From Nitrospinota bacterium (GTDB lineage: Bacteria > Tectomicrobia > Entotheonellia > J063), in NCBI GenBank assembly GCA_003696125.1, contig RFHZ01000728.1:1-6026 (forward strand): a DNA stretch of 6,026 bases. Reading direction: 5' to 3'. Shown in pieces: positions 1-5,957 of the stretch. Both the position numbers and the translations under genes were made by a program. The first letter of the stretch is position 1, and each line of letters opens with the position of its first letter. A model generated the notes under the pieces. The model did no database searches and was not told the origin of the DNA. It saw only the letters and a program-made list of their open reading frames with translations.

Positions 1-189
1 GTGACCTGGCTCGACCTCACCAACCCGGATATCGAAACTCGGCGGGTCATCCTGGGAGAGTTGATCGCGGAGATCAACGGCGCTCCCAGATCGACCGGTA
101 TGTCTCCCTTCTGGCAGGAGGAGGAGTTGATGTTCCTGCAAACCTGGGCCATCGTGGCCGGAGTCAAAAGTCAAGGGCTGACCCTGTAA
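1..189 (+). CDS. C-terminal end of an unrecognised protein (partial at window edge)
   Basis: The frame is open from the first base to a TAA at 187-189 and gives 62 residues. The GTG at position 1 may be an internal valine codon, so the true start probably lies left of the window. The residue mix looks like real protein (three Trp, balanced acidic and basic residues, no low complexity), and the middle reads as a helix-rich segment around PFWQEEELMFLQTWAIV. I recognise no family and assign no function. The last 19 bases overlap the 3' end of the convergent amidohydrolase gene, leaving no room for a separate terminator. A chance open frame cannot be excluded at this length. Confidence 0.45.
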   Translation: MTWLDLTNPDIETRRVILGELIAEINGAPRSTGMSPFWQEEELMFLQTWAIVAGVKSQGLTL

Positions 190-1304
190 ACCTCCTGCGC
201 ATTGCGCCAGAGGATCTGCTCCCCGATCTGATAGGCTTCCCTCTCCTCCAGCACCCCGGCTTCCCGGTACTCGGAAAGGACCTGGGAGAGAAGGGCGCGA
301 ACAAACCTGGCGCCTAACCAGTGAAATTCCGGGAAGGAATGCCCATCAGAGGCGTACAGGATCTTGGTGGAAGGGGCCAGTTCAAGGAGTTCGTGAAACA
401 GGACGACTCCCCTACCATGGATCAGGGGGATGCTCAGCGAGACATCGACGTAGAGGTTGGGGTAGGTGTTCACCAGGTACCCGGCCTCGCGGACATAGGG
501 ATAACCGGCATGCAGGAGGATGATGGGGAATTCCCTGAATTGGCGTTCCTGAAAAAGGGTTTTCAAAAGAAGAGGATTGGCCTGCAAAAGATCGATATCC
601 CGATCACCGAATCCGGTATGGAACTGCACCGGCAGACCGACCTCCCGGTTGAGTTCCAAGACGCTGAGCAGCAGGGCATCCAGCAGCGGTTTCGCCGTGA
701 TGCGCACCTCCTCCCCCCTCGCAGTCCTCCGCAGTTGCTCAAACGCCCGCTCCACTGCCTCCGGCTCAGGAGCGACCACCCCCAGTCCTGAGCGATAGGC
801 GATGATGCTCTTTAAGGCCATCCCTCCTGCCTTGGCAAACTGCCTGACCTCCTGGAGCATCCGCTGCTCCAGCTCGGCAAAGGAGGCCGTAACCGGCAAC
901 AACTCCCCGGCCAGCTTTTCCAGGCGGAGGATCTGGCCTACCTGACAGGGGAGCAGAGAGGCTAATTCACCAGGAGTATAGGCAGCAGGAGGAAAACCGG
1001 TGTCGAGGAGCAGGACTTCGATACCGGCGTCGGTGATGAGGCGTGAGAGCAGCTCTGCTTCTTCGTATTGTTTCCTGGCCTCGAGCACATCTTCCAGCGT
1101 CGGTTCACACCGGAAAAACTCGGCCAGGTACCGCATGGCACGCCGATAGTACAGGGTATGGGGAACATGATGATGCAGGATCTCTGGGGAATCACTCTCC
1201 GTAAAGATCTTCAGGAAATGGTCCACCTCAAGCGCCGGATCTGGACGGAAAAAGGGATGACAGTGATGATCGATGATCGGAATCCCCTGCAGATCGATCG
1301 ACAC
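171..1304 (-). CDS. Amidohydrolase, Amidohydro_2 family, like the N-terminal half of FluG/NodGS
   Basis: The 377-residue protein is a predicted cytosolic TIM-barrel metal-dependent hydrolase or decarboxylase, with no signal peptide or membrane segment. Visible motifs are the N-terminal HxH (IDHHCHP, His14 and His16), Lys165 in GGMALKS, His229 in QFHTGFGDRDIDL, His265 in ILLHAGYP and Asp320 in LYASDGHSFPE. These fit the metal-site order of the superfamily. The stretch from 226 to 332 (HTGFGD, the YP-x-EAGYL segment, LELAPSTKILYASDG, LGAR) closely resembles my recollection of FluG and plant NodGS N-terminal domains, more than generic gamma-resorcylate decarboxylases. The start is GTG at 1304, supported by a strong AAAGGAGG nine bases upstream and by the HxH falling close to the N-terminus. 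It lies 29 bases downstream of the ligase gene on the same strand, so the two are very likely co-transcribed. The substrate is unknown; hydrolysis or decarboxylation of a product or precursor of the ligase is an inference. Confidence 0.85.
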   Translation of the reverse strand: MSIDLQGIPIIDHHCHPFFRPDPALEVDHFLKIFTESDSPEILHHHVPHTLYYRRAMRYLAEFFRCEPTLEDVLEARKQYEEAELLSRLITDAGIEVLLLDTGFPPAAYTPGELASLLPCQVGQILRLEKLAGELLPVTASFAELEQRMLQEVRQFAKAGGMALKSIIAYRSGLGVVAPEPEAVERAFEQLRRTARGEEVRITAKPLLDALLLSVLELNREVGLPVQFHTGFGDRDIDLLQANPLLLKTLFQERQFREFPIILLHAGYPYVREAGYLVNTYPNLYVDVSLSIPLIHGRGVVLFHELLELAPSTKILYASDGHSFPEFHWLGARFVRALLSQVLSEYREAGVLEEREAYQIGEQILWRNAQEVYRVSP

Positions 1305-1313
1305 CTCTTTTCC

Positions 1314-1321
1314 CCTCCTTT
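1314..1321 (-). promoter_or_regulatory. Shine-Dalgarno site of the amidohydrolase gene
   Basis: On the minus strand the bases read AAAGGAGG, nine bases before the GTG at 1304. It is the strongest ribosome binding site in the window and decides in favour of this non-ATG start. It lies in the short gap after the ligase stop codon, so the amidohydrolase appears to be translated independently within the operon. Confidence 0.75.
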
Positions 1322-1333
1322 GCCCGGTGCCTC

Positions 1334-2686
1334 TCAGTAGCGATAGAAGTGATGCTCGATTTCGAAGGCTTCTCCCTGTTCCTCAAAATCGGCCCAATCC
1401 GCCCGTTTTACCGCGATATACTCCCGGGCCAGAACCTCCCCCATGGCTTCACACAGCACCTCATCCCTCTCCAGATTGTCTACCGCCTCTTCAAGGGTTG
1501 TAGGAAATCTCTTTACCCCTCTCTGGACTCGTTCCGCTTCACTGAGCGTTGCCGGATCTACAAGCATCGGCTCCCCAGGGTGAATCCGTTTGGCCAGACC
1601 GTCAAGGCCTGCCGCAATCAGTCCTCCCAAACCGATATAAGGATTCTGGCTCGCATCAGACGATTTCAACTCGAGGTGGATCGAGGTGGGTTCCTGACCC
1701 CAGACACCCGAGACGATCCGCACCGCTGCTTCCCGGTTATCCGGTCCATAGCAGGTAAAGGCCGAACTCCAGAAACGGGGTTGCAGACGGCGATACGAGT
1801 TGACACTCGGTGTGGTCAGGGCGAGCAGGGCGGGGAGATGAGTCAGGATGCCCCCGATAAAATGGTAGGCGGTCTCGCTGAGCAGGTAGGGATCGTGTGG
1901 ATCGTAGAAGAGATTTTTCTCTCCAGCGGTATCCCAGGCACTGAAATGGATATGACAGCCATTACCGGCCTGCATCGGGAAGGGTTTGGGGGCAAAGGAG
2001 GCGATGAGTCCATGTCTCTTGGCCACCCCCCGGGCAGTGTCCCGGAAGATCAACTGGTTATCCGCGGCTCGCAGCGGGTCGGCATGGGAGATCGACATCT
2101 CCTGCTGTCCGGGACCGAGTTCCGCATAGTACTGCTCGACCTGGATATTCTGCTGGGCCAGTGCATCGATCAGATCAGAGATGTAATCTGCCGCCTCATC
2201 CATGCCGATAGAGCTGAAGCAGAGGCTCTTATCAAGCGGCTGGAAGCTCTCCTCATTCTGGATCGCCAGGGTGAATTCGTTTTCAAAAGCCGCCTGCAGG
2301 GTGAGCCCGGCTTCGGTACGGGCTCTTTCCACCATCCGTTTGAGAAAGGAGCGGGGACAGGCCTCCCAGGGTTGGCGGTCGAGTTTGACCATATCGGTGA
2401 GCATGGCAGCGCAGCGGGGAACATAGGGCAGGAGCACAAAGGTATCAGGATCCGGCACCAGCCGAATCTCACCTACCGGTCCAAAAGAGCCTTGAGGGGC
2501 AATGTGTTCGAGCGTAGCGAACGACTGCATGGCCACGGTCAACCCGATTCCACTATCCATACGGGAGGCAAGTGCATGCACATGCGTGGCCTTGCCGCGA
2601 ATCACTCCCACATTATCGCAGTACAAGAAACGCACAAGCTGGACATCGTTTTCCCTTACCGCGCGGAGAACATCATCTTTGTTCAT
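1334..2686 (-). CDS. Glutamine synthetase-like ligase (GS type I fold, FluG/NodGS subgroup)
   Basis: The 450-residue protein is an ATP-dependent glutamate/amine ligase-like enzyme, presumably cytosolic and oligomeric like other type I glutamine synthetases. The ATP-binding signature is complete at 234-249 (KPFPMQAGNGCHIHFS). Metal-site residues are all present: Glu135 and Glu137 (FENEF), Glu189, Glu196 (GQQEM), His245 and Glu339. Arg300 and Arg318 (DNREAAVRI) and the NPY at 348-350 are also typical. Differences from true glutamine synthetase are no DGSS motif near 44-50, Ala240 where Asn is usual, Trp306 where the flap Glu327 (Salmonella numbering) is expected, and Lys341 in place of Arg359. 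As I recall them, FluG and NodGS proteins share the Trp and Lys changes. No NLYDLP-type adenylylation motif is seen. The start at 2686 rests on an AAGGGG nine bases upstream and on the promoter; an in-frame ATG at 2749 abuts the -10 box and would lie before the predicted transcript start. A gamma-glutamyl-amine or polyamine ligase is the likeliest alternative to ammonia assimilation. Confidence 0.9.
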   Translation of the reverse strand: MNKDDVLRAVRENDVQLVRFLYCDNVGVIRGKATHVHALASRMDSGIGLTVAMQSFATLEHIAPQGSFGPVGEIRLVPDPDTFVLLPYVPRCAAMLTDMVKLDRQPWEACPRSFLKRMVERARTEAGLTLQAAFENEFTLAIQNEESFQPLDKSLCFSSIGMDEAADYISDLIDALAQQNIQVEQYYAELGPGQQEMSISHADPLRAADNQLIFRDTARGVAKRHGLIASFAPKPFPMQAGNGCHIHFSAWDTAGEKNLFYDPHDPYLLSETAYHFIGGILTHLPALLALTTPSVNSYRRLQPRFWSSAFTCYGPDNREAAVRIVSGVWGQEPTSIHLELKSSDASQNPYIGLGGLIAAGLDGLAKRIHPGEPMLVDPATLSEAERVQRGVKRFPTTLEEAVDNLERDEVLCEAMGEVLAREYIAVKRADWADFEEQGEAFEIEHHFYRY

Positions 2687-2688
2687 AG

Positions 2689-2736
2689 CTGTACACCCCT
2701 TGCCATAATTCTTACACCTCAGAGACACTTCACACC
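2689..2736 (-). repeat. Three short GGTGT-type direct repeats in the operon leader
   Basis: On the minus strand the leader reads GGTGTGAAG (2736-2728), GGTGTAAG (2718-2711) and GGTGTACAG (2697-2689). The starts are 18 and 21 bases apart, roughly two helical turns. The core GGTGTRNAG or a close variant recurs each time, and the last copy overlaps the region just after the ribosome binding site. This could be an operator for a regulator acting just downstream of the transcription start, or chance. No regulator gene is seen in the window. Confidence 0.3.
2696..2701 (-). promoter_or_regulatory. Shine-Dalgarno site deciding the ligase start
   Basis: AAGGGG on the minus strand, nine bases before the ATG at 2686. 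It favours this start over the in-frame ATG 63 bases upstream, which has no comparable site inside the predicted transcript. Confidence 0.6.
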
Positions 2737-2808: not shown

Positions 2809-3705
2809 CTAAGGAGAGAGCCTGGACCGCAACTCCTCGGGTGAGAGCACGATCTTCTCTGCTGCTTCTGACTCCTGTCCTCGACTATCTGTCGCCGTTA
2901 CCCAGAGTGTTACCGGTGTGTCAGGCACAAAAGGGAGAAGGATGGTCTGCACCACCGTTCCTCCCCCTTTTCCTGTTGTCGCCGGCACCTCTGCCGCCTT
3001 GACCGGTCCGTTGCCGTTATCATAGTAGATGGTAGTCTTACTCAGATCGGTCAACGGTGAACCATCCCGGCGCACCGTCGGTTCCTGGTAGGACACGATA
3101 ATCTCCACCTGTTTCGACCTCCTGGAGGCGGGAGGTCCAGGACCCGTCTCTTGCGACTCAGACAACTCGCCTGCAACGGATGCGGTCTCTTTTCCCTTCT
3201 GCTGTGCCTGGGCCACCAGCCTCAGATTCCTCTGCGTCGTTACCAGTTCGGGATGGTCCATCTTGTCTAACGCCTGCCCGATGGCAAGGGCACGGGTAAG
3301 GAGGTTTTCGGCTTCCCCATATCTCCCCTGCGTGTAGTAGAGTCCGGCCAGGTTATTCAGGGTCATCACGACATGCAGGCTCTTGGGCTCCAGTTCCTCG
3401 CTCAGGCGCAACGCCCGCTGCAAGAGGGTCTCTGCCTGGCCATATCTCCCCTGTACATGGTAGAGCCGGGCCAGGTCGTTGAGGGTCAGGATGATCCGGG
3501 TATTGGGGAGCTCAAGGTTTTCCGCCTCCTGCAAGGCGACCAGAAACAATCGCTCTGCCTCTACATAGCGTCCCTGCCGGAAGGCCTCTCTCCCGGCCAG
3601 GGTGTAGCGCTGCCACTGGAGCGGGGTACAGCCCTGTAGTCCCAGCCAGAGCACACCCCAAAACACCCCCCATAGATAGATACTGCGCTTCATCGCTTCA
3701 TACAT
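2809..3705 (-). CDS. TPR-repeat lipoprotein with C-terminal fibronectin III-like domain
   Basis: The 298-residue product begins with a lipoprotein signal: a basic n-region (Lys6-Arg7), a Trp- and Leu-rich hydrophobic stretch at 8-22 and a lipobox LQGC with Cys26 as the lipidation site. Thr rather than Asp follows Cys, compatible with outer-membrane sorting. Tetratricopeptide repeats of the kinesin-light-chain style follow at about 34-66, 74-107 and 115-148, each with a GRY-x-(E/Q)AE core. The second and third are 41 residues apart and clearly duplicates. A degenerate repeat at 156-170 and a low-complexity linker (171-197) lead to a beta-rich domain at 198-287 containing RRDGSPLTDLS, TIYYDN and WVTATDSRGQES, typical of a fibronectin III-like fold. 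The ATG at 3705 has GAGGGG eight bases upstream; an ATG at 3693 is a possible alternative. The role is probably a periplasm-facing protein-protein scaffold. The partner is unknown, and a functional link to the ligase operon is not shown. Confidence 0.8.
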   Translation of the reverse strand: MYEAMKRSIYLWGVFWGVLWLGLQGCTPLQWQRYTLAGREAFRQGRYVEAERLFLVALQEAENLELPNTRIILTLNDLARLYHVQGRYGQAETLLQRALRLSEELEPKSLHVVMTLNNLAGLYYTQGRYGEAENLLTRALAIGQALDKMDHPELVTTQRNLRLVAQAQQKGKETASVAGELSESQETGPGPPASRRSKQVEIIVSYQEPTVRRDGSPLTDLSKTTIYYDNGNGPVKAAEVPATTGKGGGTVVQTILLPFVPDTPVTLWVTATDSRGQESEAAEKIVLSPEELRSRLSP

Positions 3706-3822: not shown

Positions 3823-3893
3823 ACCGCCGAGGACGCCGAGGGCGCAGAGTATTTTTGCTTATGTATCCCGGCGTTCTCTGCGTGCTCGGCGGT
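3823..3893. repeat. Interrupted palindromic intergenic repeat (REP- or MITE-like)
   Basis: The left arm, ACCGCCGAG (3823-3831) then CGCAGAG (3843-3849), pairs with the right arm CTCTGCG (3876-3882) then CTCGGCGGT (3885-3893). That gives 9 and 7 perfect base pairs around an asymmetric internal loop (11 bases left, 2 right). The left-side insert itself repeats the GCCGAGG unit. The central 26 bases are AT-richer. This type of element, with GCCGAGG/GCAGAGG units, is to my knowledge common as a dispersed non-coding repeat in many environmental bacterial genomes. No transposase is nearby. It lies about 300 bases upstream of fdrA and about 120 upstream of the lipoprotein gene. Confidence 0.75.
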
Positions 3894-4193: not shown

Positions 4194-5957
4194 ATGTATC
4201 GACAGTGTACCATCCTGCCGGGCACCTATTACGATTCCGTGGTGCTCATGCAGGTCGCCCAGGCCCTGGAAAGCTTCCCTGGTGTCCAGCGGGCAGCGGT
4301 GATGATGGGCACCCCTCAGAACAAGACCCTGCTCCAGGAGGCTCATCTCCTCACCCCAGAGGGGGAGAAGGCCACGGCAAACGACCTGCTCCTCTGTGTC
4401 CGGGCCACTACCCCCTCGGCGGCTACCGAGGCCTTACAGGAAGCCTTGAGACGCCTGCGTACCCGGGAAGAGAGGGGGAGAATCCAGGAAGCGCCTCCCC
4501 GCACCCTGGAAGCAGCTTTACGGCGTATGCCGGAGGCCAATCTCGTCTCCATCTCCATCCCGGGCCAGTACGCACGCTACGAGGCGAGCAAGGCGATACG
4601 ACACGGGCTCCATGTCTTCCTCTTCAGCGATCATGTGGATCTGGACACAGAGGAGGAGTTGAAACGCCTGGCGGCACAACAGGGGGTGCTGGTGATGGGT
4701 CCCGACTGTGGGACAGCCATAATACGCGGGGTACCGCTGGGATTTGCCCATCAGGTAGCGCGAGGACCGGTGGGACTCGTCTCCGCTTCCGGAACCGGAC
4801 TGCAGCAGGTGATCTGCCTTTTGTCACACCAGGGGATCGGAATATCGCAGGCCATCGGTGTGGGAGGACGTGATCTGCATCAACGGATCGGGGGTCAGAG
4901 CATGCGGGCAGCTCTACAAACCCTGGGTCAGGACAGAGAGACAGAGGTGCTGGTGTTGATCTCCAAGCCACCGGCTCCGGCTGTGGCCGCCTCTCTCCTG
5001 CAAGATGCGGCTCAGATCGGGAAACCCTGCGTCATCGCCTTCTTAGGGAATCAGACACGTCATCACCTGTCCCCACCCCTCTATCCGGTATCGACCCTGG
5101 AAGAGGCAGCCCAGGTTGCCGGCGCCCTGGCCCGGGGAGAACCGCTGCCTAATACTCCTCCCCTCTCATCACCCTTGAGAGTGGTGATCGAGGAATCCCG
5201 GGCAAGGCTGCAACCTGCCCAGCGATCGATCCGGGCGCTGTACTGCGGCGGGACTCTCGCCTACGAAGCGCTCTGGCTGTTACGACGAGCCCTGGGAACG
5301 GTGCAATCGAATCTGGATCATTCCCTGGCCTCTCCCCCCGAGGGACACATCGTCCTCGATTTGGGAGCGGAAGAGTTTACCACAGGCCGGCCCCACCCGA
5401 TGATCGACCCGGCGATACGACGACAACACCTGCTGGCCGTAGCCCAACAGCCAGATGTGGCCGTGGTGCTCTGTGATGTGCTGCTCGGTTGGGGAGCGCA
5501 TCCGGCTCCGGGTACGGCGCTGGCAGAGGCCTGGCAGGAGGCCCAGGCCATAGCCCACAGGGCCGGACATCACCTGATCGGCATTGCCACGGTCTGCCGT
5601 ACCCGTGAGGATCCCCAGGGATACGAGGAACAGTACCAGGTCTTGCAAGACTCCGGCCTGATTCTGGCCGAGAGCAACGCGCAGGCGGTTCGTCTCGCCC
5701 TCCTGGCCCTGGGAGCCGCGACAGGAGAAGAAGCATCCCCCGGCCCCACCATGCCGGTAAGCGATGCAGGTCCCCCTCCTCCTGTCCCTGCTCATCTCCC
5801 TGCCCTGCTTGCCGAAGGGCCTCGCGTGATCAACCTGGGATTGGAACTGTTTGCCACCCCCTTGCAAACCCTCGGGGTTCCGGTCATCCATGTAGACTGG
5901 CGTCCTCCGGCCGGGGGAGATCCACGGTTACTCGCACTATTGGAGCGCCTCCGCTGA
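4194..5957 (+). CDS. fdrA: FdrA/AllF-family protein (succinyl-CoA synthetase-like, oxamate carbamoyltransferase subunit)
   Basis: The 587-residue protein is related to succinyl-CoA synthetase. A CoA_binding-like Rossmann region at about 116-185 (LVSISIPGQYARYE, LFSDHVDL, VMGPDCGTAIIRGVPLGFAH) is followed by an alpha-subunit ligase-like domain at 192-315 (GLVSASGTGLQQV, GISQAIGVGGRDL). A second ligase-like domain follows at about 345-508 (YCGGTLAYEAL, LDLGAEEFTTGRPHPMID, DVLLGWGAHP). A Pro-rich linker (515-536) then joins a C-terminal module (VINLGLELFATP, VDWRPPAGGDPRL). The GPDCGTA, GGRDL and GRPHPMID motifs are hallmarks of FdrA. E. coli FdrA (AllF) is, from published work as I recall it, a component of oxamate carbamoyltransferase in anaerobic allantoin use, with AllG, AllH and the carbamate kinase AllK. 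The GHAGA phosphohistidine motif of succinyl-CoA synthetase is absent. The ATG at 4194 has GAGG eight bases upstream. Family membership is firm; the exact substrate is inferred. Confidence 0.88.
   Translation: MYRQCTILPGTYYDSVVLMQVAQALESFPGVQRAAVMMGTPQNKTLLQEAHLLTPEGEKATANDLLLCVRATTPSAATEALQEALRRLRTREERGRIQEAPPRTLEAALRRMPEANLVSISIPGQYARYEASKAIRHGLHVFLFSDHVDLDTEEELKRLAAQQGVLVMGPDCGTAIIRGVPLGFAHQVARGPVGLVSASGTGLQQVICLLSHQGIGISQAIGVGGRDLHQRIGGQSMRAALQTLGQDRETEVLVLISKPPAPAVAASLLQDAAQIGKPCVIAFLGNQTRHHLSPPLYPVSTLEEAAQVAGALARGEPLPNTPPLSSPLRVVIEESRARLQPAQRSIRALYCGGTLAYEALWLLRRALGTVQSNLDHSLASPPEGHIVLDLGAEEFTTGRPHPMIDPAIRRQHLLAVAQQPDVAVVLCDVLLGWGAHPAPGTALAEAWQEAQAIAHRAGHHLIGIATVCRTREDPQGYEEQYQVLQDSGLILAESNAQAVRLALLALGAATGEEASPGPTMPVSDAGPPPPVPAHLPALLAEGPRVINLGLELFATPLQTLGVPVIHVDWRPPAGGDPRLLALLERLR

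Follow-up and report, generated by a model that had tools for sequence, protein, structure and literature searches.

Do two adjacent genes, one for a glutamine synthetase (GS)-like ligase and one for an amidohydrolase, form a bacterial counterpart of FluG and NodGS, and what reaction might such a pair carry out? The window, meaning the whole stretch of DNA analysed here, is the entire contig C110 (6026 bases) of a 990-contig assembly with contamination estimated at 8%. The features on which the question turns are as follows, the start signals having been read directly from the sequence.

1334..2686, minus strand: predicted GS-like gamma-glutamylamine ligase, 450 aa, ATG start
171..1304, minus strand: amidohydrolase-superfamily partner, 377 aa, GTG start
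1305..1333, minus strand: 29-nt intergenic spacer containing a Shine-Dalgarno-like AAAGGAGGGG
1312-1321, minus strand: Shine-Dalgarno-like AAAGGAGGGG before the amidohydrolase GTG
2694..2700, minus strand: Shine-Dalgarno-like AGGGGTG upstream of the ligase start codon (ATG at 2686)

The ligase gene comes first on the minus strand and the amidohydrolase gene follows 29 nt downstream. The initial annotation had described two modules in separate genes at this spacing with the ligase leading, and both ORFs and the gap at 1305-1333 are indeed present. Each ORF has its own stop, start and Shine-Dalgarno sequence, and the two are not one polypeptide of the FluG/NodGS type. A longer ORF, with its first ATG at 2749, encloses the ligase ATG. 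The upstream product matches Gln-synt_C (PF00120, 1e-99) and Gln-synt_N_2 (PF16952, 9e-28), and the downstream product matches Amidohydro_2 (PF04909, 5e-19).

Several other features surround the pair. A TPR-repeat protein with a lipoprotein-like N-terminus is encoded at 2809-3705 on the same strand, 122 nt upstream of the ligase, and an FdrA homologue, scoring 516 bits with NF004760 (cut-off 433), lies at 4194-5957 on the plus strand, opposite to the pair, with the contig stopping just after it. The FdrA family is tied to allantoin and purine catabolism. Between the TPR gene and fdrA, at 3823-3893, is an imperfect inverted repeat with 23-nt arms that are 83% complementary and 25 nt apart. An ORF end at 1-189 on the plus strand enters from the contig start, converges with the amidohydrolase gene and overlaps its 3' end by about 19 nt. 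We considered FdrA, the TPR protein and the pair as a single conserved cluster and rejected this, as the related loci examined show no FdrA or TPR homologue except the window's own TPR gene. Beyond the ligase and the amidohydrolase, the conserved unit seems to include no other gene of the window. The window contains no oxidase, dehydrogenase or transporter genes, and no homologues of PuuB, PuuC or PuuD beside the ligase such as would indicate a Puu-type pathway.

We evaluated the ligase against the residue equivalences published for FluG, 4HPP and 4LNN (PMC6478659 Table 3). The residues for metal, ATP and glutamate are kept (E135, E137, E189, E196, H245, H247, R300, R318, R323 and E339), whereas the acids of the ammonium site, D50 and E327 in GlnA, with which GlnA binds and deprotonates ammonium, are replaced by T50 and W306. 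The GS half of FluG has Ser at the D53 position and Trp at the E304 position (PMC6478659 Table 3). The ligase resembles this half in its intact metal/ATP/Glu set and in W306, with T50 where FluG has Ser. In a 60-protein tree, a quick tree with several long branches, it falls within a 47-protein clade with support of 100 that includes haloarchaeal proteins annotated as gamma-glutamylputrescine synthetases, PA5508 and a ligase from a Streptomyces plasmid that is paired with an amidohydrolase. PuuA and the GlnA of the same genome fall apart from this clade. Judged from its sequence, the predicted ligase is no ordinary GlnA or glutamine synthetase, because both ammonium-handling acids are replaced and its tree position is outside GlnA. 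Its GS fold, its metal/ATP/Glu residues, the missing ammonium-site acids and its grouping with characterised members place it among the gamma-glutamylamine ligases in the broad sense. The best NCBIfam model is the gamma-glutamylputrescine synthetase NF045547, which it matches at 520.4 bits, below the curated cut-off of 650.

The partner carries the active-site set H14, H16, K165, Y170, H229, H265 and D320. The corresponding residues of the N-terminal half of FluG are H20, H22, K192, Y197, H264, H298 and D354 (PMC6478659 Table 2), so that, with equivalence drawn through 2QPX, it matches all seven published positions of the FluG N-terminus and 2QPX. None of the seven varies among the family members aligned, in sets of 18 and of 24. 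HTGFGD corresponds to residues 229-234 and LELAPSTKILYASDG to residues 307-321; in the ligase, Trp306 and Lys341 lie where the initial annotation had put them. By sequence, the best solved relative is 2QPX (LSEI_0440), with E values of 6e-44 for the single sequence and 1e-93 for the profile. The same structure comes first by fold when a predicted model (mean pLDDT 91.8) is compared (Z 45.0, rmsd 2.2 Å, 363 residues aligned), and the HxH, Lys, Tyr, His, His, Asp set is held in a TIM barrel as in 2QPX. The protein groups with 2QPX/LSEI_0440 and not with unrelated decarboxylases. The folds that follow are 4i6v (an uncharacterised amidohydrolase 2), uronate isomerases (Z 24-28, 327-362 residues) and then phosphotriesterase-like enzymes. 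Given that 4i6v and uronate isomerases come next, the name amidohydrolase is no proof of amide hydrolysis. LSEI_0440 can substitute for the N-terminal half of FluG in vivo in Aspergillus (PMC6478659).

To place the pair in a wider context we surveyed 80 loci fetched using the amidohydrolase alone as query, so that the set carries no bias towards the ligase. In 55 of the 80 a same-strand ligase gene directly precedes the amidohydrolase gene, within 700 nt; the median gap is 46 nt, and 49 of these 55 have a gap of at most 200 nt. Several of the remaining loci are cut by contig ends or have a ligase within a few kb. Genes placed at random would be neighbours far less often than this; as a measure of scale, three PF00120 genes are present in the 4.2-Mb genome to which the window belongs. 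The bearers span many phyla and include Chloroflexota, Cyanobacteriota, Rokubacteria, Tectomicrobia, Bacillota, Thermotogota and Deinococcota, the last with pairs on plasmids, and further pairs occur in the phylum of genome G112, judged actinobacterial from Streptomyces-like proteins. In haloarchaea the two genes are a few kb apart. The pair thus recurs in a wide range of bacteria and in some archaea. Only four relatives in the genome sample share the class of the host. For 55 pairs the distance matrices of the two proteins show a correlation of r = 0.90 (permutation maximum 0.19 in 2000), a value to which the organismal history common to both proteins contributes. The counts and the correlation together bear out the earlier view that the pairing is not chance proximity.

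The description of the locus as split and order-reversed relative to FluG fared less evenly: the genes are separate, but their order is no peculiarity of this locus, ligase-first being common in bacteria, as in SCO6962-SCO6961 (PMC5403932), and the usual bacterial order in our survey. In the phylum of G112, one locus (L151) has the amidohydrolase first, in the FluG order (about 9428-10525, then 10574-11920), and another (L154) has the pair in divergent arrangement. Among the loci examined, a non-exhaustive set, no fused amidohydrolase-ligase protein was found in prokaryotes. Three Chloroflexota loci (L034, L041 and L099) carry a second GS homologue directly before the pair, with F306 and R341 and grouping near PuuA. 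The observation behind the initial annotation is confirmed, and its interpretation is partly supported.

Position 341 lies two residues past a metal-binding glutamate and aligns with Arg359 of enterobacterial GlnA. Within a 78-protein set, Lys341 is present in all 56 paired ligases, and the 22 unpaired ones have Arg341 in 17 cases and Lys341 in 5. The unpaired proteins with Arg341 include GlnA, PuuA, PA5508, haloarchaeal GlnA2 and the second GS-like copies. The tree requires just three independent K/R changes, most of which run the expected way (sign test median p 0.25), and because there are only three, the association of Lys341 with pairing is suggestive and statistically not established. 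As a strict marker of pairing K341 is ruled out by five K-type ligases that have no adjacent amidohydrolase (L118, L141, L142, L143 and L172). It is possible, although we consider it doubtful, that ligases with W306 and K341 form a distinct subfamily in which Lys has replaced Arg in connection with the amidohydrolase partner, with FluG and NodGS as its fused form. The cause might be, for instance, that the product is handed on, or that the acid substrate is other than plain glutamate.

These data allow us to propose, with moderate confidence, that the pair is a two-gene operon handling an amine nitrogen source, in which the ligase would gamma-glutamylate the amine and the amidohydrolase would act in the same route. 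In the first step the ligase, with ATP, would activate the side-chain carboxylate of glutamate, and the activated glutamate would be joined to a mono-, di- or polyamine and not to ammonium. Such gamma-glutamylation of an amine is well supported by the chemistry of the predicted family. For the second step we infer that the amidohydrolase, as a binuclear-metal enzyme, acts on the gamma-glutamylated compound or its oxidised product, which would release glutamate and the amine-derived product. Adjacency and parallel divergence argue for one common route of both enzymes.

The neighbours of the pair elsewhere also suit a route that draws nitrogen from an amine or an amino compound. In Chloroflexota and Deinococcota an ABC transporter of the branched-chain amino acid type lies beside the pair, and other conserved neighbours are Lrp/AsnC regulators, EutB (ethanolamine ammonia-lyase), acetamidase/formamidase, N-formylglutamate amidohydrolase, class III aminotransferase, M20 peptidase and amino acid permeases. 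In one locus (L082, 3549-10442) an acetamidase/formamidase precedes the pair, and EutB, an alpha/beta hydrolase and another Amidohydro_2 protein come after it; by ORF clusters L086 is arranged in the same way. Against the proposed route stand the score of the ligase, which at 520 bits falls short of the 650 set for gamma-glutamylputrescine synthetase, the lack of oxidase, dehydrogenase and transporter genes in the window, and the five K341-type ligases in the sample without an adjacent amidohydrolase.

The order of the two steps could be the reverse, with the amidohydrolase freeing an amine from an amide, a cyclic amide or a similar compound, the ligase glutamylating it and another enzyme removing the glutamate. 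Some pairs do have a separate candidate deglutamylase or amidase nearby (N-formylglutamate amidohydrolase in L116, acetamidase/formamidase in L082 and L115), and in the host genome contig C476 (L179) carries a strong PF07722 (PuuD family) match adjoining an FAD-oxidoreductase-like ORF. The L116 enzyme and the PF07722 match mean that deglutamylation may fall to an enzyme other than the amidohydrolase, and 2QPX and the FluG N-terminus are similar to cyclic amidohydrolases (PMC6478659). The ligase-first gene order and the proposal of a late hydrolase in Streptomyces (PMC5403932) nevertheless suggest the opposite sequence of steps, and we regard a hydrolase-first route as unlikely.

The amidohydrolase might instead be an isomerase-, lactonase- or decarboxylase-like enzyme that works on the carbon skeleton of the substrate without cleaving an amide. 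That the nearest folds after the uncharacterised 2QPX and 4i6v are the uronate isomerases (Z 24-28), then phosphotriesterase-like enzymes, is consistent with this; similarity of fold, however, shows no function, and the protein retains the bridging lysine K165 together with the HxH/H/H/D ligands that form a binuclear hydrolase centre (2QPX ligands, PMC6478659), which leaves such an activity distinctly improbable. Less probable still, and in our view very unlikely, is that the pair makes a signalling gamma-glutamyl metabolite and is not catabolic, as has been proposed for FluG and NodGS. An extracellular developmental signal does require FluG (PMC6478659), and the tea GSI-like CsTSI produces theanine, gamma-glutamylethylamide (PMC9909507), but those loci that have any conserved neighbours have catabolic and transport ones.

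An amine-handling operon of this kind would matter beyond the locus itself, since it bears on what FluG makes in fungal and plant development. The halves of FluG occur as a separate conserved gene pair in cultivable cyanobacteria, Deinococcus and actinobacteria, and in haloarchaea with a few kb between them, which makes gene knockouts on defined amines feasible. If the W306 and K341 ligases are a subfamily that includes FluG, the FluG metabolite that has long been sought might turn up in a bacterium, and if the Lys341 pattern holds, it offers a cheap means to select the relevant ligases among many GS-like genes.

Among solved proteins, the best relative of the ligase is PA5508 (PauA7, PDB 4HPP), which shares Trp at the E327/E304 position but has Arg at position 341, where the window ligase has Lys, and Val in place of T50. 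LSEI_0440 (PDB 2QPX) has all its ligands in common with the window amidohydrolase at about 30% identity and is uncharacterised. In the PuuA-PuuD pathway of E. coli, gamma-glutamylation of an amine comes first, as we propose for the window ligase, but PuuA has Tyr306 and Arg341 and PuuD belongs to another family than the window amidohydrolase. Gamma-glutamylputrescine synthetases of the haloarchaeal GlnA-2 kind share the clade of the window ligase, and one haloarchaeal GlnA-2 is a glutamate-putrescine ligase without GS activity (PMC8394153). The haloarchaeal proteins of L122 and L123 differ in having Arg341, no Trp306 and no such amidohydrolase adjoining, whereas haloarchaeal ligases with an amidohydrolase within a few kb have both W and K.

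In gene arrangement the locus is like that of S. coelicolor, where a ligase gene, glnA3 (SCO6962), is likewise followed by an Amidohydro_2 gene, SCO6961; the two are likely co-transcribed and polyamine-induced, and GlnA3 glutamylates putrescine in vitro (PMC5403932). The Streptomyces plasmid pair L117, which served as a proxy for glnA3-SCO6961, has W306, K341 and a 105-nt gap, with identities to the window pair of only 38% for the ligase and 31% for the amidohydrolase. At3g53180 has been described as homologous to SCO6962 (PMC6899585). FluG of Aspergillus nidulans, NodGS of Arabidopsis and CsTSI of tea, a plant FluG-type protein that makes theanine (PMC9909507), have the same two domain types, and the published catalytic positions of both halves of FluG are also found in the window proteins (PMC6478659 Tables 2-3). 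They differ in being single polypeptides with the amidohydrolase-like half first, where the window has two genes with the ligase first. An earlier study treats FluG as the product of fusing two bacterial enzymes and mentions that such genes lie close together in bacteria (PMC6478659). Together, the literature on FluG, glnA3, GlnA-2 and CsTSI makes this locus a further example of a known, poorly characterised arrangement. As part of the amine-nitrogen model, we think it reasonably likely that the pair is a two-gene bacterial counterpart of FluG/NodGS, and FluG may plausibly descend directly from an operon of this kind.
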